From positions 1 to 25,952 of IMG/VR virus record IMGVR_UViG_3300009551_000111: 25,952 nt of DNA, one strand, 5' to 3'. The notes beneath the pieces were generated by a model. It saw only the letters and a program-made list of their open reading frames with translations, was not told where the DNA came from and ran no database searches. Both the position numbers and the translations under genes were made by a program. The stretch is from a virus. This document shows, one piece after another, positions 9,891-25,951 of this stretch; positions within the stretch are counted from its first letter, which is position 1; every line of letters begins with the position of its first letter.

Positions 9891-10745
9891 TCACTCTGCC
9901 AAAAGCTTCTGAACCTTCTCGCGCTCAATTTGCAACCAGTCCGTTGCGTCGATGAACTCCTCGCGCTCGGTTCGCGTCCAGTTCTCCGGCGGCGCGTCGC
10001 TGATGGCTTTCGTGAACAGACCGCGAATCGTCGTCGCTTGTTTCAGGAATTTCTGAATCAGCGGGAAGTTGCTCGGGTTTTGAGGTTCACCCCGCGCCGG
10101 CGCCGCGATCATGCCGACCGCCTGGAATCCTGGCAGGAATATCTCGACCGCCTGACCGACCTCCGTAATCGCTTTCGGCTGGGAATTAGCGACCGACACA
10201 TACCACTTGGAGAGCTCGAAATCGAACGGCACCTTGCCCTTGAGATGCGCGGCGAAATAATCCGCGTCCATGTGCTTATGACCGCACATCGTCTGAAGGA
10301 TGATGCCCAGCGCCCGGGCTTTGTTCCCTGCCTTGACACCGATCTTGCCAAGCTCTTTGAGCATGGCCGTGAATTCACCATGGCCCGCGATGAGTTGCGC
10401 GATCTCGCTGCGTTCCGCATCCTTTCGCAGCATGATGCCGGATTCAGCGTTATTGGGATCTGATAGCTTTCGGCTGATAACGTCAAGACTGCTCAAGTCG
10501 GCAGACATCTCGATTGTCGTTTCTTCTCCTTCGTGTTTCCACGAGCCGACGACCAACGCCTCCGCAACCGCGATAACGGAGCGGTTGCTGTCGATTACGC
10601 CGGCAGTCTCAAGTTGTGCGAGGACGGTTACCGCGGTATCTCCGCCGATTTTCAATTCGTTGCGCAAGAGCCGGACGCTCGCTTTGTTTTTCTTTCGGAC
10701 AAGTTCGGTCGCTTCGGCGACTAAATTTCTATTTTGGGTTTTCAT
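9891..10745 (-). CDS. Protein with N-terminal FtsK-gamma-like winged helix
   Basis: A 284-residue protein. Residues about 8-51 closely follow the gamma domain of the DNA translocase FtsK, which reads oriented KOPS sites: E..ELVRKKNKASV...LR.ELKIGGDTA with a later LETAGVI match the family pattern of KAS, R, L, IG, A and GI. The FtsK motor is absent. The rest is helical, of unknown family, with a segment FDFELSKWYVSVA near the middle and a C-terminal region of Arg/Glu helices. It precedes the terminase genes. It could be a DNA-binding regulator or packaging helper. The leader is A-rich without a Shine-Dalgarno sequence. Confidence 0.75.
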   Translation of the reverse strand: MKTQNRNLVAEATELVRKKNKASVRLLRNELKIGGDTAVTVLAQLETAGVIDSNRSVIAVAEALVVGSWKHEGEETTIEMSADLSSLDVISRKLSDPNNAESGIMLRKDAERSEIAQLIAGHGEFTAMLKELGKIGVKAGNKARALGIILQTMCGHKHMDADYFAAHLKGKVPFDFELSKWYVSVANSQPKAITEVGQAVEIFLPGFQAVGMIAAPARGEPQNPSNFPLIQKFLKQATTIRGLFTKAISDAPPENWTRTEREEFIDATDWLQIEREKVQKLLAE

Positions 10746-11480: not shown

Positions 11481-11579
11481 TTGGCATAAAAATTGCTTTC
11501 AAAAGATTCCTTATGGGGTGGGGTGTCCGCGATTGGCACGCCGTTTGCTTAGCGTTTATTGGCATGGCTATTGCTTAGC
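11481..11579 (+). promoter_or_regulatory. Three tandem sigma-54-like (-24/-12) promoter sites
   Basis: Three sites follow TTGGCA-N6-TTGCTT: 11481-11498, 11533-11550 and 11559-11576. The second, TTGGCACGCCGTTTGCTT, fits the published sigma-54 consensus YTGGCACG-N4-TTGCW at every position; the others each differ slightly in the region after TGGCA. All keep the GG-N10-GC spacing that sigma-54 needs. All point rightward, opposite to every gene nearby, so they would transcribe antisense across 11568-12123 toward the hairpin array. They could instead be operators for an HTH protein. I see no bacterial enhancer-binding protein gene in the window. Confidence 0.6.
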
Positions 11580-11750
11580 TGCCATATCCGCTCCGATTAG
11601 TGCGATGGCCATCGGGCCTTCGTCGTCTGGTAATTCCTTCATCATGGATTGGATTTTGCCGACCAGCGCGAAGATTCGATCTTGGCTTGGTTGCGGAAGC
11701 TGTGATACCAGCCCACGGATTGCGAGTGCGGTTAGTTGTTCTTCAGTCAT
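11568..11750 (-). CDS. Small hypothetical protein, 60 aa
   Basis: The ATG at 11750 overlaps the stop of the gene before as ATGA, so I prefer it to an upstream Met at 11783. The product is a helical 60-residue protein (EEQLTALAIRGLVSQLPQPS, then FALVGKIQSMM) with an acidic turn DDEG and a small C-terminal helix. It has no cysteines and no membrane segment. The last sigma-54-like site overlaps its 3' end. Function unknown. Confidence 0.65.
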   Translation of the reverse strand: MTEEQLTALAIRGLVSQLPQPSQDRIFALVGKIQSMMKELPDDEGPMAIALIGADMAAKQ

Positions 11751-11947
11751 TTCGCGTATTTGGTTTTGATTGCGTTGGAGCATTCGACCGTGAACAGGTG
11801 AGTCTTGCCTTGGCGATATGGTGCTACGACCTCACCGCAGGCTATGAGCTTGGCGAACCGTGGCCCTGGCAGATTGGCCGCTCGTGCTACCTCGCTGGCA
11901 CTGTATAGGGTTATCACGTTCGCTTGTTGGTTCGTTGTTCCGTTCAT
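11747..11947 (-). CDS. Small MerR/excisionase-like HTH protein, 66 aa
   Basis: A 66-residue protein dominated by one helix-turn-helix: LYSASEVARAANLPGPRFAK, followed by a wing-like strand VVAPYRQGKTHLF and a C-terminal helix. The pattern of YSASEVAR with a following turn and a Gly/Lys-rich wing is typical of MerR-like or Xis/AlpA-like DNA-binding domains without an effector domain. It is the second gene after the hairpin array and is a good candidate to bind that array, or to regulate the adjacent replication operon. Both ends are in ATGA overlaps with neighbours. Confidence 0.7.
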   Translation of the reverse strand: MNGTTNQQANVITLYSASEVARAANLPGPRFAKLIACGEVVAPYRQGKTHLFTVECSNAIKTKYAK

Positions 11948-12123
11948 TCGTTATTTCGCTCTGAGTCAACCGTCTCCTCCTCTGTGCCCGGTTCTTCCCC
12001 ACTCATTCCACACCAGTTCGTTGACGCTCCGTCGTATCGGTAATGGGCCTCGAAAGTTCCGGCTTTGGAGAGTCGAACCAAGCCGTTACATTCTGGACAA
12101 ATTTGGGCTATGAATTCGTGCAT
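11944..12123 (-). CDS. Small putative zinc-binding protein, 59 aa
   Basis: I choose the ATG at 12123. A longer in-frame reading up to 12444 would translate the repeat array and is rejected. The product begins MHEFIAQICPECNGLVRL; CPEC with a later WC pair and His residues may hold one zinc. The second half is very acidic (GEEPGTEEETVDSE). A GGAAAG sequence nine bases before the ATG may serve as ribosome binding site. It is the first gene after the array, so its promoter is expected within or just beside the repeats. Its stop overlaps the next start as ATGA. Confidence 0.7.
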   Translation of the reverse strand: MHEFIAQICPECNGLVRLSKAGTFEAHYRYDGASTNWCGMSGEEPGTEEETVDSERNNE

Positions 12124-12180
12124 GTTTTTTTCTTTCCGAATTTCTCTCGCAACTTCCGAGTCCGCGCCAAGTCCGCGTTT

Positions 12181-12406
12181 GCTGTTCCGCAACAACCCCT
12201 CTAAAGGGGGTTGCGAACATGCGAACAGGTCGATTTTGGAGACTTGCGAACAGCTATGGAACCATTGATAATAAAGGCCCAAATAGCTGTTCGCAAAGAG
12301 CTGTTCGCAATAGCTGTTCGCACGATTTGCGAACAGCTCTGAAACGTGTCGGGATTCTTTACAAAAGCTGTTCGCAAAACACATGCGAACAGCTCTGCGA
12401 ACAGCT
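12181..12406. repeat. Array of an 11-bp motif in both orientations with perfect hairpins: candidate origin
   Basis: The motif TGCGAACAGCT and its complement AGCTGTTCGCA occur at 12245, 12328, 12384 and 12396 (forward) and at 12285, 12299, 12312 and 12366 (reverse), plus degenerate copies near 12182, 12212 and 12220. Reverse/forward neighbours form hairpins: 12312-12322 with 12328-12338 (11-bp arms, 5-base loop), 12366-12376 with 12384-12394 (11-bp arms, 7-base loop), and 12244-12257 with 12283-12296 (14-bp arms). A GC-rich hairpin lies at 12193-12214. Placed directly after the primase-helicase gene and before two HTH/zinc proteins, the array looks like an iteron-type replication origin or a cooperative operator. 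The surrounding 12124-12453 holds no credible gene. Confidence 0.9.
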
Positions 12407-12453
12407 CCTGATTTTAGGCTTTGATTTTGACGAAAAATTGTCACTTTAGGTTG

Positions 12454-14460
12454 TTACTTTTTTGGAAGGATTTTCCGCCAAAGATTGTCGGTTTTTGAGA
12501 GGTGGATTTTGTTGTCAGCTGACAGCCTGGCGCGATGACCTTCGAGCGTGCGTTTCCCCATCTCCAGATTCGTGCTGGCAAGCTCACTGAGCGCCGCCGC
12601 GGTAATCCCGCTGCCGTCGGGCGGGAATAGCGCCAGGACGTCGCCAGCGGTCGCTTTAGCTTTTTTGGTCTGATTGTCCGGCTCCTTGAGCGTCGACGCG
12701 TCCAGAGACGAATCTAGGCGCATCAATGGGTATTCCCAGCGGACCACAAAGGATTGCACAGGCGGCATCTCGCGAAGGATTGCCTCAATCGCGAACGCGC
12801 CATCTTCTTTGTGCGCGGTCATGGTGAGCATCGCATCCGGGTCGCGGAGGAGGACGCCGGATCCTGATACGCGATCTCCGGAGAATTTCGACGACTGGTT
12901 GCCCTTCGAGAAGTGTGCAGAAATGACCAGCGCACATTTTACGCGCATCGAAATTTCCTCGAACGAGTTCATAATCTGCGTCATGCAAGCCGATGAATTT
13001 TCGTCTGATCCTCCCCCGAGCAACTTGTAAAACGGGTCCAGAATTACCAGGTCAAACTCGCGATTACCAATTTTCGAGATTAGCTCGGGAATCATGGTTT
13101 CGAAGCTGGCAGCGTAACCGCGCAGGTTCAAAATTGTGAGCCAACCTTTCTGAATTTCGGACGATTCGAGCCAAGCCTCGTCGAATTTTATTCGCGAGAC
13201 CTTTTTGAGCCGGCGTTGCAACCCGAACGGCTGTAGCTCGAGGTTAACAAATAGCACGCGCCCGCGGGTGACCGGGAACGATAACCACGGGATGCCGTGT
13301 GACACGCTCAAAGCGAGGTCCAGCAATACCCACGTTTTGCAAGTTTTGCTGCCACCACCCAGGATCATTCGAGCGCCCTTGTGCAGGATGCCATGGATAA
13401 TCTGAGTCGGCTCGGGAATTTCGACTGCCACAAAGTCCGCGGCATCGATCATCGGCGGGAGATAACTCGCAGCCGACTTGCAAATCAGTTCCCAATCGGT
13501 CCAGCTTGCGGCGCCATGGGCCAATGTCAGCAACTCTTGCCGACCGTTCCCGCGCGTGCAGCCTGGTAACCGGGAGAGTCGCGACGGGTTTTTGTTCTTC
13601 GGGTCGATGCCGTAACTCGCGAAATGCTCATGGAGCAGCTTCACCCGGTCGGCGTATTCCTTCGCGTCTTTGGCATCGATCTTTACGAGCGCATGAATCG
13701 ATTTTCCGCCCGACGTATAGACGGCAGCGCAAGGGATTTGGGACTGCTCGTAAATGCTCCACTGTTCCGCCATGGGACGCCCGTCGAATTCGAGCAGGGT
13801 ATAACGCCAATCTGTGACATCGGCGTCCCTGGAGCCGTCCGGCTTCATCGGGTTGACCCGGAAATAGACGCCTGTCCGGTCGTCGCTCCAAATCATTCCG
13901 CCTTGCGTGTCGTTAAAATCGCCGCCCTTGGCTTCGATTTTCTCAATCCACGTTTCGAGCGGCCACACGACACCGTTGCCGTCGGGCACCTCGCGGCCCT
14001 CTTCATTCAGCACCGCCGGGCAAATGGCGACATTCTCGCCCGGCCGGAACACCGCGCGAAGGAAAGTCACCGTCGGATTATCCTTCATCGCCGGCGGAAT
14101 CGCGGCATCCGGCTTAGGGGTGTAATGGGCTTTCGCTACAGGGGTCACAGCAGGCTTTGCGCTCATCGATGACGGTCGGTAATCTGGACGCGACTGAGAC
14201 GAGCCTAGGAGATGCCCGGCGGCCTTGTCGTGAGGCGTCGCGACTGCCTGTCTGATTTTGTGCTCAAGCTCGGCTTCCGTCCAGGGCGGGGAGCATCGGC
14301 TATTGTATTCGCGTAGGACCGTCAGCGCGTCAACTTCGGATAATCGGAATCCGTTCGTCAGTGCGACGGCCGTAGAAAACGTTTGAGAGTGGCCGTTACT
14401 CCCCGACACCGCGCCGGGAATCGCCGCAACGTAAGCGCGGGCTTGGTCAATTGGACTCAT
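12454..14460 (-). CDS. Primase-helicase (AEP-like primase with RepA-like helicase)
   Basis: Start at 14460 has GGTGA five bases upstream and overlaps the previous gene by 14 bases (668 aa). Three parts can be seen. First, residues about 30-75 form a helical primase-associated region (LREYNSRCSPPWTEAELEHK). Second, about 195-305 is archaeo-eukaryotic primase-like: LLEFDG, SGGKSIHALVK and NPSRLSRLPG correspond to its acidic, His and Arg motifs. Third, about 350-560 is a RepA-type RecA-fold helicase with Walker A GGGSKTCKTW (368-377), Walker B LVILDPF and a later VISAHFSKG. A winged helix ends it. It should unwind and prime the phage DNA at the adjacent array. Regulation is not visible. Confidence 0.88.
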   Translation of the reverse strand: MSPIDQARAYVAAIPGAVSGSNGHSQTFSTAVALTNGFRLSEVDALTVLREYNSRCSPPWTEAELEHKIRQAVATPHDKAAGHLLGSSQSRPDYRPSSMSAKPAVTPVAKAHYTPKPDAAIPPAMKDNPTVTFLRAVFRPGENVAICPAVLNEEGREVPDGNGVVWPLETWIEKIEAKGGDFNDTQGGMIWSDDRTGVYFRVNPMKPDGSRDADVTDWRYTLLEFDGRPMAEQWSIYEQSQIPCAAVYTSGGKSIHALVKIDAKDAKEYADRVKLLHEHFASYGIDPKNKNPSRLSRLPGCTRGNGRQELLTLAHGAASWTDWELICKSAASYLPPMIDAADFVAVEIPEPTQIIHGILHKGARMILGGGSKTCKTWVLLDLALSVSHGIPWLSFPVTRGRVLFVNLELQPFGLQRRLKKVSRIKFDEAWLESSEIQKGWLTILNLRGYAASFETMIPELISKIGNREFDLVILDPFYKLLGGGSDENSSACMTQIMNSFEEISMRVKCALVISAHFSKGNQSSKFSGDRVSGSGVLLRDPDAMLTMTAHKEDGAFAIEAILREMPPVQSFVVRWEYPLMRLDSSLDASTLKEPDNQTKKAKATAGDVLALFPPDGSGITAAALSELASTNLEMGKRTLEGHRARLSADNKIHLSKTDNLWRKILPKK

Positions 14461-15436
14461 ATAAATCACCGCCGCCGTCATTTGAGAGAACACCCAGATT
14501 CTCCGGTCTGTAATTCGCTGATTTCCAATCTTCCCAAGAGAATCTTTTGTCGTAAGCTCCAATAACCCACCGTTGAAAACCTACTAGTTCTGGGGTTCGC
14601 TTGAACGGCATTGGGTATGGTCTCGCTCCGAATTCACGAAGCTTAGCTTGTCGAAAGATACGATCTTGTTCGGTCTCTCCGGGCCAATAACCGATCAGCA
14701 TGTAAACCATTATATGATCCGGCTTCACGCCGTATTTAACCAAGCGATCCAAGCCAGCAAAGAGACGGCTTTCGTCTTTGCGATTATCCCAAGCTGTGTA
14801 AATCCTTTTAGATTTCATCGAGTCGTCTCGATAATCAATCGAGGCGATCGCTTCCGCTGCCTCGTCGGTTAAGAATCTCGCATTTATTCCCTGATTGAAT
14901 GACACCTTGAACTTGCCGTCTCGGATTTCAGAGATTCGCGCTTTCCAATTCGGCTGTCCGAAAAAGTCATTGTCCAGTAATAGCAGTTCGCGCGGCCACG
15001 TATCGCCGCGCCAGATATCAGATATGGAAGATTCCTCGCGCATCTCGCCTTCCTTTTTAGGAACCACACAAAACGAACATTTCAAACGGCAACCACGCTG
15101 GGTGAAACCAATGCTTTGCCGCCATTTCGGGTAAATAGAATAATCCTGACGAGTCGTAACAATTCCAAACTGTTCAAGGTTTACTTTGAGATCTATACCA
15201 GTGCCGCCAATTATTGCGTTTGGGTATGCAAGTTTAAGCTTTTCGGCGGATGGTGTTGATTTTTCAAATATAAGAGAACCATATACAATGTCCGGATTGT
15301 CCCACAGTTCACGCTCCGGATTCCCTGTCCAACGGAATGAAACCTCATCTCCTAGCGATTTGTGATGCGCACTGATTCGCATCAACGCAATGTTTGGAAT
15401 CTTTCCGTCTAATTGGAATATGAGCACCTTAGCCAC
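14447..15436 (-). CDS. Radical SAM protein with B12-binding-like N-terminus
   Basis: A 329-residue radical SAM enzyme. Residues 1-90 or so form a Rossmann-like domain (MAKVLIFQLDGKIPN, then AIIGGTGID) resembling the cobalamin-binding domains that precede many radical SAM cores, though I see no cobalamin-ligand His motif. The core has GFTQRGCRLKCSFC, with Cys116, Cys120 and Cys123 as the CX3CX2C cluster ligands, followed by strands such as ELLLLDNDFF and VSFNQGINARF that fit the TIM-barrel SAM-binding motifs. I choose the GTG at 15436, which overlaps the preceding mini gene by 8 bases; another GTG lies at 15460. Substrate unknown: nucleic-acid or protein modification is possible. Confidence 0.85.
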   Translation of the reverse strand: MAKVLIFQLDGKIPNIALMRISAHHKSLGDEVSFRWTGNPERELWDNPDIVYGSLIFEKSTPSAEKLKLAYPNAIIGGTGIDLKVNLEQFGIVTTRQDYSIYPKWRQSIGFTQRGCRLKCSFCVVPKKEGEMREESSISDIWRGDTWPRELLLLDNDFFGQPNWKARISEIRDGKFKVSFNQGINARFLTDEAAEAIASIDYRDDSMKSKRIYTAWDNRKDESRLFAGLDRLVKYGVKPDHIMVYMLIGYWPGETEQDRIFRQAKLREFGARPYPMPFKRTPELVGFQRWVIGAYDKRFSWEDWKSANYRPENLGVLSNDGGGDLYESN

Positions 15437-15575
15437 GACAATTAATATTCGTGCAAACACCGCGCCCGTTTGGGGTGTAATTCAGAACGCCCCGACACCG
15501 ATGGCAACGCCCAAAGAAATTGAGAATCAATCGACGGTAATAAGCGAGCCGATAGCGTAAGGTTTGGAAGGTCAT
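15429..15575 (-). CDS. Mini zinc-ribbon-like protein, 48 aa
   Basis: A 48-residue, Arg-rich protein with two cysteine pairs: CHRCRGVLNY near residues 25-34 and CTNINC near 41-46. These can bind one zinc ion as a short ribbon. The start overlaps the previous mini gene as ATGA and the end overlaps the radical SAM start by 8 bases. Its net positive charge suggests nucleic-acid contact. No family is recognised; the chain of overlaps argues that it is real. Confidence 0.7.
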   Translation of the reverse strand: MTFQTLRYRLAYYRRLILNFFGRCHRCRGVLNYTPNGRGVCTNINCRG

Positions 15576-16182: not shown

Positions 16183-16355
16183 TTCTTATTAGGATTTTTC
16201 TCGCTGTCCAATTTTGCTTCGAGCCATCCAACCTTGAAACATTTCTTCGCGAATGATTCAAGCGCGGGCATGGTTATGGGTGACGTTTCGGTTTTCTCGT
16301 GATCCTTGCGAAGGCTGGCGATCATTGCCTTTTCGGCGATTGCGTATGCGGTCAT
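16179..16355 (-). CDS. Small hypothetical protein, 58 aa
   Basis: A 58-residue protein with an N-terminal helix (AYAIAEKAMIASLRKDHEK) and a C-terminal helix with FAKKCFKVGWLEAKL, ending Lys/Asn-rich. It has one cysteine and no membrane segment. Both ends form ATGA overlaps, with the helicase-methyltransferase before it and the RuvC-like gene after it, which strongly supports translation. No family recognised. Confidence 0.65.
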   Translation of the reverse strand: MTAYAIAEKAMIASLRKDHEKTETSPITMPALESFAKKCFKVGWLEAKLDSEKNPNKK

Positions 16356-18898
16356 GTTGTTATCACTTTCGCCCCGTAGTCAGCCAAGTCGAACAGTGTG
16401 GGCGCGTGACGCTGGTTTTCTGCCATCTCGCAGTAACCCACAGCATCGGCCCAGTAGTCAGGATTCAACTCGCAACCCCAACCTTTTCGGTCCATGTGGA
16501 TTGCGTGATATGCCACGCTGCCGATGCCGAGGAACGGGTCGAACACGACTTCGCCTTTGTTGCTGAATCGTTCGATTAACCGTTTTATGATGTCCTCTTG
16601 CAATGGGCAAACGTGCTTTTCCTCGTTGCGCTGGCTCTGCTGAGTGTTAAGCGTGCGCATCCGAATGATGTCAGACCAGATGCCAGGATGATTACTAATC
16701 GGAGGAAACAGCATGAAATCCGACGGCAAGACTCCTTTATCATCCAGCGCGACAGACACCGAGGTATGCTCGTTGTATTCGTAACGGTGGGTCGCGCAAT
16801 GTTGCTTCCACAGTCGCAACACGTTTGAGTGTCCCATGTTCGCGAGCAGTTCCGGATCCGGCAACCGATTCCCGCTCGACTTCCAAAATCCTGCCGCGTC
16901 TATTTGCCACAGCCCGCGCGGATACTTCACCTTGTCATGCTCAACCGGCATGTCCGCGTAACCCTTGTCAAGATTCGTTTGCGGCTTGCGAAACAACAGG
17001 ACGTATTCGCAGCAGCCTACGCCCATCTTGCTCATGTCCTTGCAAGCTTCGGTCCACCCGAGCCGATAGGTTTGATTGTTCTCGCGGACGACGTCGGTAT
17101 CGATTGCAATTCGACCGATGAAATTAAATCCGTGCTTCTCAAAAGCATCGGCGGTTTGGTCTGAGAACCTGTCAATGGTTGGAACGCCCTTCCCGGTGAC
17201 GTTCGCGAATCGGACGCGGTCCTTTGTGTGAATTGCAGCTACGCGCCCCGGTTTAAGCACGCGAAACAAATTCGGCAGCATGTAATCAAACTGCTGAAAG
17301 AATGCGACGTTGTCAGGATTGTGGCCCATGTCATTGACGCTGGGCGAATATTCGTATTGATTGCCGAACGGAATCGACGTGACTATGGCGTCAATGCAGT
17401 TATCCGGCCACGGTTCCGGCGCGTCCAGCATCAGTTCAAGCGTGGTGTCATTGTGGATTGCGCGGAAGCAATCGTGATTTCCAACCGCTTCCTTGCGGTC
17501 GCATCCGAGGGTTCTTTTGAGTTGCATATCTGGTTTTAGGGAGAGCTTGTATTTGCGGAGCAATCCGGCCATCTTCGCGACTAACACATCGTGTTGCGCC
17601 CATTTCTTTTTGAGGGATGCGATAACCGGGTCTTCCGACTCGGTATAGACAATGTGAATGTTTACCTCGTGAAGCTGGCCGAAGCGGTAGATGCGGTGAA
17701 CGGCTTGAATGAAGTCGTTGAATTTGTAAGTCGACCCCATGAAGATCGCATCCGAGCAATGCCGTTGAAAATTGCAACCACTTCCCGCAATGCTTGGTTT
17801 CGTGGCGAGGTTTTGAAACAGGCCGTTACCAAAGTCGAGAATGATTTCCTCGCGCAGGTCCAGCGGCATTGAGCCGTAAGCAGTCTTGAGCTTGTCGCGG
17901 TCTGGGAATGCCTTTTCGATGTAATGCCGCTCAAGTTCCAGGTCATGCCACAACAACCAATGCGCGTCCGGTTTACTGGCCATGATCTCGCGAGCTTTAT
18001 CGAGTCGCGTGAATATAGTTTCACGTTTGATCTCTGCTCCCTCTTTCAACCCGGAAGTCTTATCCTGAATTAGTTGCGCCTGGCCCCATGAGTCGTAAAT
18101 CTTCCAAGCTTTCTTGTGATCGACCGGGACGCAATGCCAATGCACCTTCATCGGCGGCAAATCGTATCCGGTAGAGTCGTATCCAAGGTCGGACGGCGAT
18201 TGCATGAACACGGCCCAGGATGAGAGCCACAACCAGAATTGCTCTTCCATGTGCGGATAGAGTGTGAGGTTATTCGCCTGCGTCGAATCGCGCTTAAAGA
18301 ACCGGGTGAGAGCGTCGCCGGTATCCATCACGCCAAGGAAACCGCCGTAATGGATTAGTTCCTTGTGCTTGTTTGGTGATGGCGTAGCCGTGAAAACGAA
18401 TCGGTATTTTACGGCCGCAAACAAGCCAAGGAACGTCTGATAGGTCTTGCTACCGTAGGAGCGCAACACGCTCGCCTCGTCAAGGCCCGCGCCGATAAAA
18501 CGATCATCGATCTTTATCCCGCCATCTCGCACGCGTTCGTAATTGGTGATGACGAATTGACCGGCTGCGTTGATCTCTGCGTCATTGGTGCAATAGACAA
18601 AGTCGCAACCCATCTGCGGACCCTGTTCGTGGACGAATTCATGCTTTACGCCAAGGGGGCAGATGATTAGATATTTCTTGCTGGGATTCGCTTCACAAAC
18701 CCATTTTGCGACTTGCAGATTGATGCGCGTCTTTCCCATTCCGAACGCTGCAAAGCACGCGCGTTGACCGCCACGACACATCCAAGCGGCGATGTCGGAT
18801 TGATGCGGCTTATTTGTCGAGACCGGCGGCGACAGTGGTTCAAAGCCGCGATCTTCCGCGCGTGGGATTTTGGCGAGTAGGAATTCTTGGTAGGTCAT
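16352..18898 (-). CDS. SNF2-like helicase fused to a beta-class DNA methyltransferase
   Basis: An 848-residue two-domain protein. The N-terminal half is a superfamily 2 helicase of the SNF2 kind: Walker A FGMGKT (52-57), a DEAS box (140-143), a FTATPSPN motif and QAVHRIYRFGQ (398-408). The C-terminal third is an amino-methyltransferase whose catalytic motif TSIPFG (about 507-512) comes before the SAM-binding motif DPFLGIGS (about 787-795), the order of the beta class, which makes N6-adenine or N4-cytosine. The usual catalytic PPY is IPF here. There is no nuclease domain. The start at 18898 overlaps the MazG stop as ATGA; an upstream Met at 18961 is less likely. It may modify phage DNA against host restriction. 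Confidence 0.88.
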   Translation of the reverse strand: MTYQEFLLAKIPRAEDRGFEPLSPPVSTNKPHQSDIAAWMCRGGQRACFAAFGMGKTRINLQVAKWVCEANPSKKYLIICPLGVKHEFVHEQGPQMGCDFVYCTNDAEINAAGQFVITNYERVRDGGIKIDDRFIGAGLDEASVLRSYGSKTYQTFLGLFAAVKYRFVFTATPSPNKHKELIHYGGFLGVMDTGDALTRFFKRDSTQANNLTLYPHMEEQFWLWLSSWAVFMQSPSDLGYDSTGYDLPPMKVHWHCVPVDHKKAWKIYDSWGQAQLIQDKTSGLKEGAEIKRETIFTRLDKAREIMASKPDAHWLLWHDLELERHYIEKAFPDRDKLKTAYGSMPLDLREEIILDFGNGLFQNLATKPSIAGSGCNFQRHCSDAIFMGSTYKFNDFIQAVHRIYRFGQLHEVNIHIVYTESEDPVIASLKKKWAQHDVLVAKMAGLLRKYKLSLKPDMQLKRTLGCDRKEAVGNHDCFRAIHNDTTLELMLDAPEPWPDNCIDAIVTSIPFGNQYEYSPSVNDMGHNPDNVAFFQQFDYMLPNLFRVLKPGRVAAIHTKDRVRFANVTGKGVPTIDRFSDQTADAFEKHGFNFIGRIAIDTDVVRENNQTYRLGWTEACKDMSKMGVGCCEYVLLFRKPQTNLDKGYADMPVEHDKVKYPRGLWQIDAAGFWKSSGNRLPDPELLANMGHSNVLRLWKQHCATHRYEYNEHTSVSVALDDKGVLPSDFMLFPPISNHPGIWSDIIRMRTLNTQQSQRNEEKHVCPLQEDIIKRLIERFSNKGEVVFDPFLGIGSVAYHAIHMDRKGWGCELNPDYWADAVGYCEMAENQRHAPTLFDLADYGAKVITT

Positions 18899-19272
18899 CG
18901 CAGTTGCTCCTTCACAATCGCCTTTAGATTCGCCGGTGAATACGAAGGGCCTTTTACCCATTTACCATCGGCGCGACGGTGACCGTCGATGAACTTGGAA
19001 AGGTTCGACCGCTGAACCTCGTTCCATCCTGGCTCGATTTCCAATCCCATCGCCGACGCCGCGCCTACCGTGACATACAACAGGTCGATGATTGCGTCAT
19101 AAGCTTCAACCATGTCACCTTGCTTGAAAGCCTCTTCAAGCTCGACAAGCTCTTCGAGAATCAGATTGACGTGAAGATCGCGAGCACTCGGCGAAGGCAT
19201 GACTGGGCGCGCGGGCAAGCCTTGCTGTGCAAGCTGCATGAATATTTCAACCTCTCTTTGTTCTTTTCTCAT
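18895..19272 (-). CDS. MazG / PRA-PH-like nucleotide pyrophosphohydrolase
   Basis: A 125-residue all-alpha protein. The core EELVELEEAFKQGDMVEAYD followed by IIDLLYVTVGAA has the EExxE and following ExxD-type acidic metal-binding pattern of the MazG / phosphoribosyl-ATP pyrophosphohydrolase superfamily, which splits (d)NTPs to (d)NMPs and pyrophosphate. The tail FIDGHRRADGKWVKGPSY, with its invariant-looking KxxxGPxY end, is characteristic of a phage-associated subgroup. It could clear modified nucleotides or tune nucleotide pools and alarmones during infection. It has an AAGG nine bases before the ATG and follows a small membrane-protein gene. Confidence 0.85.
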   Translation of the reverse strand: MRKEQREVEIFMQLAQQGLPARPVMPSPSARDLHVNLILEELVELEEAFKQGDMVEAYDAIIDLLYVTVGAASAMGLEIEPGWNEVQRSNLSKFIDGHRRADGKWVKGPSYSPANLKAIVKEQLR

Positions 19273-19276
19273 TGTT

Positions 19277-19414
19277 TCAACCTTTCTTTTTCAGATAATC
19301 CGTGACCATTGCCGCGCCGACCGCGATAAAGCAAAATTCGATTCTGATCCAGTGCGGGATTACGAGTGACGCAGTCCCGAGCACGATTAGTAGATAGCCG
19401 ATGGTGAGTTTCAT
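19277..19414 (-). CDS. Small membrane protein, 45 aa, two hydrophobic segments
   Basis: A 45-residue protein with two hydrophobic stretches (IGYLLIVLGTASLVI and FCFIAVGAAMV) separated by a short polar turn PHWIRIE, and a basic tail KKKG. This makes a likely two-helix hairpin in the inner membrane with the basic end inside. Phage holins can look like this, but most are longer and sit with a lysis enzyme, which is absent. Its start overlaps the gene before as ATGA. Function unknown. Confidence 0.65.
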   Translation of the reverse strand: MKLTIGYLLIVLGTASLVIPHWIRIEFCFIAVGAAMVTDYLKKKG

Positions 19415-19584
19415 GGCAGTTCTTGAAGGTCTGCCAGTATGACTACTCCATCACAATCTCCGCTCTTTCCTGCTACCTTTGTAGCTTCAAATATCACGTC
19501 AAATTCTTCGGCATGATGGATTATCAAGGCTTCCGCCTCTTGATCTTCATCCAGCAATTGCGCAATCAGTTCTTTTACTTTCAT
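19411..19584 (-). CDS. Small acidic hypothetical protein, 57 aa
   Basis: A 57-residue acidic protein starting MKVKELIAQLLDEDQEAEAL, a form often met in small phage proteins whose N-terminal helix is followed by a beta region (VVILADLQELP). It contains one cysteine. Its start overlaps the helicase stop as ATGA and its stop overlaps the next start as ATGA. No biochemical function is known to me for this type. Confidence 0.65.
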   Translation of the reverse strand: MKVKELIAQLLDEDQEAEALIIHHAEEFDVIFEATKVAGKSGDCDGVVILADLQELP

Positions 19585-20984
19585 GCTGCGATCCTCCTGT
19601 TCCTGTTTGCTTGAATTTTCTCCCCGATAATCTTCGACGCTTCGGCCTTTGTCATCCCGGTAGGGTCGATTCCGAACTGGATAATCAACTTCCGTTGCGC
19701 AAGCGAATGCGGACCATTCGGCCCGTCATTACCCCACTGCGAAACCGCTTGCTCGGTTGCGGATTTCATCAGCGCATCCGCGCGTTCCTGTTTCTTCCGC
19801 TTCCGTTCCAACTCGCGAGCGAGTGCGTTTTCCCGTTGTTCCTGCACCGTGTTGCAGATGTCTTTCAGGTCAAGCTCTTCATCGGAACCATGACCCGCCG
19901 TTGCCTCGCTGACTGCCGCCGCAAGTTCTTCATCTTCACATAGCAGGCTCGCCGGCCGGCAAATGTTGTGCTTGCCGTGCTGCCAGAGGAAATCGAGCAC
20001 TAGCAGGTTTTCTTTTCCGGGATAGAGCCGTGTCCCGCGCCCGATGATTTGCGAGTAAAGCGACTCTGACTTTGTGAGTCGCAAATTCACCACGCAATCG
20101 ACCGCCGGGCAGTCATAGCCCTCGGTGAGCAGCATCGCGTTGCACAGCACTTCCGTATAGCCGCTCGCAAATCGCTTCAAGATCTCGCCACGATCGTCGC
20201 TCTCCCCGCTGACGTGCTCGCTTACGAAACCCTCTTTCAGCATCGCCTGATTCATTTTCTGCGAGGTCGCGATGAGCGGCAGGAAAATCAGGATTCGACG
20301 GAAGGGTGCCCGCGCTTTAATGGCCCGCGCAATCTCCGGCAAATAGGGGTCCAGGGCGGTCGCCAGTTGTTTGGTGTCCCAATCGCCCTTTTCGATTCCG
20401 ACGTTGCCTACCTCAATCTTGAGCGGAATTGAGCGCACCGTGATAGGTGACAGGTATTTCTGATCGATCAATTCCGAAAGGCTGATCTCATAGGCCAGAT
20501 GCTCGAAATAGGTCATTAGACTTTTCTTGTCCGTCCGGTTGGGTGTCGCTGTCACCCCGAGTATTTTCGCGCCCGTAAAGTGACGGAGAGTTGTCTGCCA
20601 GCCCGGCGAAAGCGCATGGTGACATTCGTCCGCGATCACCAACCCGAAATGATTCTGGGGCCATTTGGCGAGCCTGCTGCCCTTTAGCGTCTGGACGCTG
20701 CCGACTATGACGGGAGAGTGGCGACTGCCGCGCATTTCAGCTTTCTCGACACTGGCCATTATCCCCGTCGTTTTGTGAAGCTTCTCGACCGCCTGTTTTA
20801 CCAACTCGTCCCGGTGAGCCAGGATAAGCGTCCGTTCCCCGCGCTGCTCGTAATCATGCGCAATCTGCGAGAACACAACCGTCTTGCCCCCGCCAGTCGG
20901 AAGGACGCCGAACACGCGTTGGACGCGGGTGAACGCCTCATGCACGGCGCGGCGGAAATCCAACTGGTAGGGGCGAGCGTCCAT
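19581..20984 (-). CDS. DEAD/DEAH-box (SF2) helicase
   Basis: A 467-residue superfamily 2 helicase of the UvsW / RadD / type III restriction-like group. Motifs: Walker A PTGGGKT (29-35), LILAHRDEL, DECH (119-122), a VTATPNRTD motif, TEGYDCPAV and QIIGRGTRLY (311-320). The C-terminus (about 400-467) is basic and ends in a helical segment GMTKAEASKIIGEKI that may bind DNA or a partner. It probably remodels replication or recombination forks, comparable to UvsW in T4. There is no nuclease motif. It is followed by small genes in the same strand with overlaps, and preceded by an 81-aa gene with one base between. Confidence 0.9.
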   Translation of the reverse strand: MDARPYQLDFRRAVHEAFTRVQRVFGVLPTGGGKTVVFSQIAHDYEQRGERTLILAHRDELVKQAVEKLHKTTGIMASVEKAEMRGSRHSPVIVGSVQTLKGSRLAKWPQNHFGLVIADECHHALSPGWQTTLRHFTGAKILGVTATPNRTDKKSLMTYFEHLAYEISLSELIDQKYLSPITVRSIPLKIEVGNVGIEKGDWDTKQLATALDPYLPEIARAIKARAPFRRILIFLPLIATSQKMNQAMLKEGFVSEHVSGESDDRGEILKRFASGYTEVLCNAMLLTEGYDCPAVDCVVNLRLTKSESLYSQIIGRGTRLYPGKENLLVLDFLWQHGKHNICRPASLLCEDEELAAAVSEATAGHGSDEELDLKDICNTVQEQRENALARELERKRKKQERADALMKSATEQAVSQWGNDGPNGPHSLAQRKLIIQFGIDPTGMTKAEASKIIGEKIQANRNRRIAA

Positions 20985-25655: not shown

Positions 25656-25951
25656 TTGCGGTTATCCTTGGTTGCTTTAATGGTGTCCCCGAGTAGCCCG
25701 TTGAAATATTTAGAAATCTCGCTGAGCGTCCCGCCCCGCATCGCGCTGAGCGTCCCGCCCCGCATCGCGCTGAGCGTCCCGCCCCGCATCTCGCTGAGCG
25801 TCCCGCCACACATCTCGCTGAGCGTCCCGCCATACATCGCGCTGAGCGTCCCGCCCCGCATCGCGCTGAGCGTCCCGCCCCGCATCGCGCTGAGCGTCCC
25901 GCCCCGCATCTCGCTGAGCGTCCCGCCACACATCGCGCTGAGCGTCCCGCC
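25652..25951 (-). CDS. Repeat protein frame (8-aa repeat), truncated by the window end
   Basis: This minus-strand frame is open from 25652 to the window end and starts outside it. Each 24-bp unit gives an 8-residue repeat of the form M-x-G-G-T-L-S-A/E, where x is R, C or Y, followed by a non-repeat end FNGLLGDTIKATKDNRK. Its stop overlaps the next start as ATGA, which favours this frame over the other two minus-strand frames, which are also open. Every unit holds an ATG. Whether it is translated is uncertain; low-complexity repeats can stay open by chance when the unit length is a multiple of three. Confidence 0.4.
   Translation of the reverse strand, partial: GGTLSAMCGGTLSEMRGGTLSAMRGGTLSAMRGGTLSAMYGGTLSEMCGGTLSEMRGGTLSAMRGGTLSAMRGGTLSEISKYFNGLLGDTIKATKDNRK

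Follow-up and report, generated by a model that had tools for sequence, protein, structure and literature searches.

Origins located directly behind the gene of an initiator-helicase have been described for SaPI and SCCmec, and in the case of SCCmec the C-terminal domain of Cch2 was shown in vitro to bind the origin (PMC7581432). In the PLE satellites of Vibrio cholerae, origin and initiator domain form modules which are exchanged, and the cognate pairing of the two has been proven by swaps (PMC7145576, PMC8263062). For pRN1, a stem-loop origin lies behind the gene of the AEP-helicase ORF904, and the same has been suggested for some phages (PMC4234260). Phage NrS-1 encodes a PrimPol in which an AEP is combined with a helicase domain, and a short word found on both strands has been suggested as its origin; this word occurs in two copies only, at the centre of the genome, and is recognized as single-stranded template by a helix-bundle domain (PMC7102993, PMC8718748). 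Finally, the iterons of RSF1010 are bound by a separate protein, RepC (PMC4234260).

Here, we analyzed a window of 25,952 bases, which is the whole sequence of the virus record and in which the main genes all lie on the minus strand. Since portal, terminase and major capsid genes are recognizable, the record derives from a tailed phage, probably in incomplete form. Among the matches listed, the best bacterial-genome relatives of its primase are found in Verrucomicrobia, which suggests that the host probably belongs to this phylum. Directly 3′ of its primase-helicase gene, the window carries an array of an 11-bp motif. As the position of such arrays is kept across the family and their motif tracks the C-terminal domain of the primase, we propose, from sequence comparison and structure prediction, that this array is very probably the replication origin of the phage, at which the C-terminal winged helix of the adjacent primase-helicase would bind the 11-bp motif as duplex DNA.

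Similar to SaPI Rep and SCCmec Cch2, the repeats cluster directly 3′ of an initiator-helicase gene and their proposed reader is C-terminal; in those elements, however, the helicase is a different and separate one and another protein serves as primase, whereas here primase and RepA-type helicase are fused. PLE RepA resembles the present case in that the DNA-binding domain co-varies and moves with the origin, the remainder of the protein staying the same, but it is a RepA_N initiator with an N-terminal binding domain, its origin lies away from the gene, helicase and primase are not fused, and few modules are known compared to the many motifs encountered here. In pRN1 (ORF904) and phage BIP-1, AEP, helicase and winged helix are likewise joined and an origin element immediately follows the gene (PMC4234260), although the helicase is of the SF3 instead of the RepA type and the element is one long stem-loop instead of a short-word array. 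NrS-1 PrimPol shares with our protein the phage-encoded AEP and helicase domain and the short word on both strands, and differs in the copy number, location and mode of recognition given above. RSF1010 has an iteron origin as well, and its RepA is the solved structure closest to the helicase domain studied here; RepC is a separate protein, whereas none of the small neighbours of our array is conserved among relatives. What appears to be new, judged from these comparisons, is a lineage-specific array of mixed orientation whose putative reader is the tail of a fused primase-helicase and whose position is maintained across a large phage family, the kind of origin being known from SaPI, SCCmec and PLE. 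In the open-access literature searched (subscription journals lay outside this search), no description of an origin was found for the primase type to which the protein appears to belong.

The primase-helicase gene occupies 12454-14562 on the minus strand and encodes 702 amino acids from the listed TTG. As residues 1-32 are predicted to be disordered and an ATG is present at residue 28, the real start may be at 14481. Next to it, a Radical-SAM protein (phrog_9298) is encoded at 14447-15460 on the same strand, the 3′ end of its gene overlapping the listed start of the primase-helicase; a Radical-SAM protein near the primase was also seen in a few distant relatives (L036, L077). The primase-helicase matches phrog_2597 'DNA primase' (E 2.8e-107) and AAA_25 (E 8.8e-30), and its model, built from 56 relatives, is confident for both the AEP and the RecA-type domain. 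The AEP domain (residues about 165-345; 13528-14070, minus strand) is delineated by alignment, by the model and by a profile match to the PrimPol AEP domain 6zp9 among solved structures. Residues E258, D260 and H290 are invariant in the alignment of 56 relatives, H290 being the histidine of an SGGKSLHA-type motif II. The RepA/RecA-type helicase domain (residues 375-556; 12895-13440, minus strand) is defined by AAA_25 and Foldseek, and RSF1010 RepA was retrieved both by profile (E 2.6e-9) and, as 1nlf, as the top Foldseek match of the whole protein model (E 1.9e-11). The helicase half of the RSF1010 comparison drawn in the sequence-only reading is thereby borne out, while the binders which that reading proposed are not supported, the likely binder here being the primase-helicase itself rather than a counterpart of RepC. 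A C-terminal winged-helix-like domain (residues 639-698; 12469-12648, minus strand), delineated by the model, the fold of relatives and covariation, is the proposed reader of the array.

The InversePrim family of AEPs comprises prophage primases in which the PriCT domain precedes the AEP domain instead of following it (PMC5862659). In relatives of our protein, PriCT_2 is N-terminal, ahead of the AEP domain (E 8e-17 to 2e-21); the protein itself gave no Pfam match to PriCT at E≤5 and has helices at residues 37-108 in the corresponding place. In the motif II histidine, the fused RepA-family helicase and its encoding by a phage, evident from terminase, portal and capsid in the same record, the protein agrees with this family, and we describe it as a PriCT-AEP-RepA-type, "InversePrim"-like primase-helicase.

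The non-coding gap between the primase-helicase stop and the next gene spans 12124-12453, at the 3′ end of the minus-strand gene, and measures 330 bp provided that the next gene begins at the ATG at 12123. On the grounds of the ORF list and the family-wide repeat enrichment described below, it is the proposed origin region, and the array (12212-12406, both orientations) takes up most of it. In agreement with the eight good copies and further degenerate ones seen by the sequence-only reading, the motif TGCGAACAGCT (11 bp) occurs in eight exact copies between 12245 and 12406, four on the plus strand (12245-12255, 12328-12338, 12384-12394 and 12396-12406) and four on the minus strand (12285-12295, 12299-12309, 12312-12322 and 12366-12376), accompanied by a plus-strand copy with one mismatch (TGCGAACAGGT, 12220-12230) and a copy with three mismatches at 12212. 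Perfect hairpins were confirmed as well, pairs of copies forming arms of 11-14 nt with 100% complementarity; 12312-12322 thus pairs with 12328-12338 over 11 bp around a 5-nt loop, and 12366-12376 with 12384-12394 over 11 bp around a 7-nt loop. Next to the array lies an imperfect palindrome (12181-12219; sequence and DNA fold) with a CAACCCC/GGGGTTG core and arms of degenerate motif, which lacks a T-tract and is therefore not a clear intrinsic terminator. On the other side, a stretch rich in AT (12407-12453) joins the primase stop to the array; the first 50 nt past the stop contain 64% AT as compared with 47% in the surrounding stretch, making it a candidate unwinding site.

Copies with zero or one mismatch are confined to the array within the whole 25,952-base record, and with up to two mismatches 19 matches were counted against 8.7 expected, a number equalled in 0 of 100 shuffles. 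No 11-mer exceeded two copies per 330 bp in shuffled versions of the record (n=20), nor did any in the rest of the record except within a tandem repeat at 25.7-25.95 kb. This repeat, nearly ten copies of a 24-bp unit (ATCGCGCTGAGCGTCCCGCCCCGC) at 25716-25951, forms the right end of the record, is open in several frames (e.g. GGTLSAMR...) and possibly represents a repeat of host or phage where the assembly came to a stop. The gap behind the primase is not, as had been stated, the only non-coding stretch above 300 bases: 19273-19580 (308 bp), between ORFs 18895-19272 (MazG-like) and 19581-20984 (a helicase), is another without a clear gene. The 25,952-base record yielded neither Rfam families nor tRNAs, exact inverted pairs of TGCGAACAGCT were not found in the other viral contigs searched, and no DNA similarity of 11501-12600 to phage records was detected. 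GC skew, around the primase stop or cumulative, showed no switch at the array and is uninformative with respect to an origin.

Single-protein searches with the primase and TerL did not retrieve close relatives, and alignments were consequently used as queries. Loci of relatives were taken from viral contigs and bacterial genomes, each scan covering 80 of about 560-575 confirmed relatives. Arrays were scored as repeated 7-mers on both strands in 300-bp windows against dinucleotide shuffles, a score which replaced a noisy first test based on exact 8-mers over 350 bp. The 300 bp immediately behind the primase stop codon reached, across 229 dereplicated relatives, a mean z of 10.2 (median 7.0), with 81% at p≤0.02, as compared with mean z values of 0.36-0.82 and 7-15% at p≤0.02 for 16 other 300-bp windows of the same relatives. 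This 3′ position was also the sole one to stand out in an earlier set of 93 dereplicated loci. Whereas 19% of the 3′ gaps contain five or more copies of one 7-mer, none of 159 other non-coding gaps does, which indicates that the repeat excess is not a general property of gaps. No repeat excess directly 3′ of the primase (z<2) was found in 34 of the 229 relatives, and a few carry their strongest array 1.0-1.7 kb beyond the usual place. Such displaced arrays were observed at about +1716 (L089, GAGGGAC x6) and about +1564 (L045, AATGTCA x7) from the primase stop, with other genes between, and represent either moved origins or another kind of site, e.g. a separate regulatory one.

Among the 155 strongest arrays, motif density was 23.3/kb inside and 1.17/kb outside the array. 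The first copy begins at a median of 8 nt past the primase stop and the last ends near 232. In contrast to direct repeats of the SaPI and SCCmec kind, both orientations were present in 150 of the 153 non-palindromic arrays, as in our record with its four exact copies per strand. The array words are specific to lineages: GTTCAAA was found in a Verrucomicrobia clade, ACTATCA in relative L013, and TATGTCA, GAGGACA, GCGGAAA and others elsewhere. A mixed-orientation array 3′ of the primase is thus a family-wide feature, present in most relatives.

Folding of the array region as single-stranded DNA (-71 kcal/mol, z -10.6 versus shuffles) raises the question of whether the primase recognizes stem-loops rather than duplex sites, as in pRN1, which requires a stem-loop 3′ of its AEP-helicase gene (PMC4234260). 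Nevertheless, repeats of any word in mixed orientation form stems automatically, and adjacent copies in the same direction are common (++ 251 and -- 156 of 1,050 neighbouring pairs). Moreover, pRN1 keeps structure without sequence, whereas here a word is repeated within each phage, in an array of short words instead of a single, structurally conserved long stem-loop. We consequently regard a hairpin origin of this type, formed on single-stranded DNA, as improbable.

If the reader of the array is encoded nearby, word and reader are expected to change together. We therefore compared motif sharing between two phages, defined as at least four hits within one mismatch, with the identity of the individual primase segments. 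When primase and helicase domains are equally similar, sharing climbs steeply with the identity of the C-terminal domain. In a joint model of pairs with a core identity of at least 0.7, the standardized logit coefficients were 1.34 for the C-terminal domain, 0.21 for the AEP domain and 0.18 for the helicase. Similarly, in 66 disjoint pairs the C-terminal domain predicted sharing with an AUC of 0.84 (p=1e-5), as compared with 0.66-0.72 for the other parts, and the partial Mantel r of 0.324 (p≤0.0005) exceeded all 2,000 permutations. Where core and downstream flank are alike and C-terminal identity is below 0.45, the motif was shared in 0 of 14 disjoint pairs; in comparable pairs with a C-terminal identity of at least 0.65, it was shared in 10 of 14. 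Some phages differ mainly in the C-terminal domain and the array. In L109 and L117, nucleotide identity is about 0.9-0.98 up to -400 and again from +200, and 0.5-0.7 between, so that with like flanks and an unlike middle the exchanged piece corresponds to the C-terminal domain together with the array.

In relatives (n=53), the C-terminal domain shows helix-turn-helix Pfam matches for many members, and was modelled, at pLDDT 79-89 across the helix-turn-helix, as a winged helix resembling that of the DtxR/IdeR/MarR regulators, with VIA-align Z values of up to 8.4 over 60 residues at an rmsd of 1.7 and weak Foldseek E-values (best 0.09). The predicted fold fits DNA binding, although a fold alone is not proof of function. 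In the protein of our record, the domain displays the order helix-helix-helix-strand-strand at low confidence (pLDDT 50-60). The motif of the closest relative among those listed (L013, 42% identity) is moreover a different one, so that the covariation seen among relatives would extend to this particular protein by analogy.

An alternative role as a cluster of operators, through which the primase-helicase or a small neighbouring regulator would control downstream (late/packaging) transcription, is suggested by the location of the array, which lies ahead of the small Zn/HTH genes and separates replication from packaging genes, and by two weak promoter-like matches inside it; such a role could coexist with an origin. 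With the main genes on the minus strand, the array indeed follows the 3′ end of the primase gene and precedes the 5′ end of the small Zn-type gene (11944-12123), the next one past the gap, which is followed by the HTH gene (11747-11947). The sequence-only reading had put forward these two products as binders; however, neither has a homologue in the loci of 394 relatives, in which arrays persist, so that this part of the reading is not supported, while its origin part has gained strong support from comparison. The motif furthermore tracks the primase C-terminus and not the downstream flank, and operators normally occur at promoters and not immediately past the gene of the protein that binds them. 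Taken together, we consider an operator cluster rather unlikely.

As the C-terminal coding region adjoins the array, the co-variation of domain and motif must in part reflect linkage. Should it be linkage alone, the 3′-terminal part of the gene would by chance have been exchanged jointly with the gap, and the array would bind something else. In the joint model, however, the downstream flank had no predictive value (-0.02) and the segment just upstream (LINK) a coefficient of -0.40. Likewise, at a C-terminal identity of at least 0.6 the word is common to 73% of pairs despite a dissimilar downstream flank, whereas below 0.4 it was shared in 0 of 6 pairs with a similar flank. Pure linkage is therefore very unlikely in comparison to recognition of the array by the C-terminal domain.

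That the hairpins are transcription terminators or RNA structures closing the replication operon is hardly credible, since, despite the perfect 11- to 14-bp stems and a separate GC-rich inverted repeat past the array in several relatives, 0 terminator-like sites were found against 1.5 expected, terminators have no need for one word eight or more times, including same-direction neighbours, and covariation with a DNA-binding domain would be left unexplained.

FtsK-gamma domains bind short DNA words, and at 9891-10745 (minus strand), upstream of the terminase genes, the window encodes a 284-aa protein with an N-terminal FtsK-gamma-like winged helix just below the Pfam cut-off. An SNF2/SSL2-type helicase is encoded as well, fused to a DNA methyltransferase in an 869-aa protein (16352-18961, minus strand; phrog_16/62 plus phrog_67), after whose gene the ORF at 19581-20984 encodes a second helicase of the phrog_16 family. 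That the array serves another phage protein such as the SSL2-type helicase, which is conserved and present in at least 331 relatives, or the FtsK-gamma-like protein, is highly implausible, as the identity of the SSL2-type helicase had no positive effect on motif sharing (coefficient -0.55) and the loci of relatives contain no match to the FtsK-gamma-like protein.

Returning to the array as an origin read by the primase-helicase, these results are compatible with a model in which the C-terminal domain would guide the fused enzyme to double-stranded copies of the word located immediately behind the gene that encodes it. Since the copies have both orientations, at least two helicase rings could be assembled in opposing directions, the neighbouring AT-rich stretch would open first, and the fused AEP domain would lay down the first primers, so that replication would begin at the array.

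More tentatively, and as a possibility rather than an expectation, the C-terminal winged helix and the array might constitute a fast-evolving, exchangeable cassette of replication specificity across this primase family in several bacterial phyla, with origin conflict driving motif turnover far above that of the enzyme. Sources of conflict in such a scenario would be hijacking satellites, origin-targeting nucleases and incompatibility of co-resident prophages, comparable to what has been argued for PLE versus ICP1. The Streptococcus satellite phages Javan2, Javan594, Javan375 and Javan328 encode helicases akin to the helicase domain found in this primase family, and may have origins which either imitate those of helper phages or avoid them.

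If the proposed recognition holds true, it would provide a simple rule, namely that in phages with this type of fused primase-helicase the origin is to be sought directly behind its gene. For many prophages of Streptococcus, Enterococcus, Clostridia and Verrucomicrobia, of which no mapped origin was found in the open-access literature searched, both an origin and the domain likely to read it could be located in this way. Furthermore, the natural pairs of domain and motif, and their swaps, would offer material to decode DNA reading by winged helices, as well as a testable case of origin conflict driving phage evolution.
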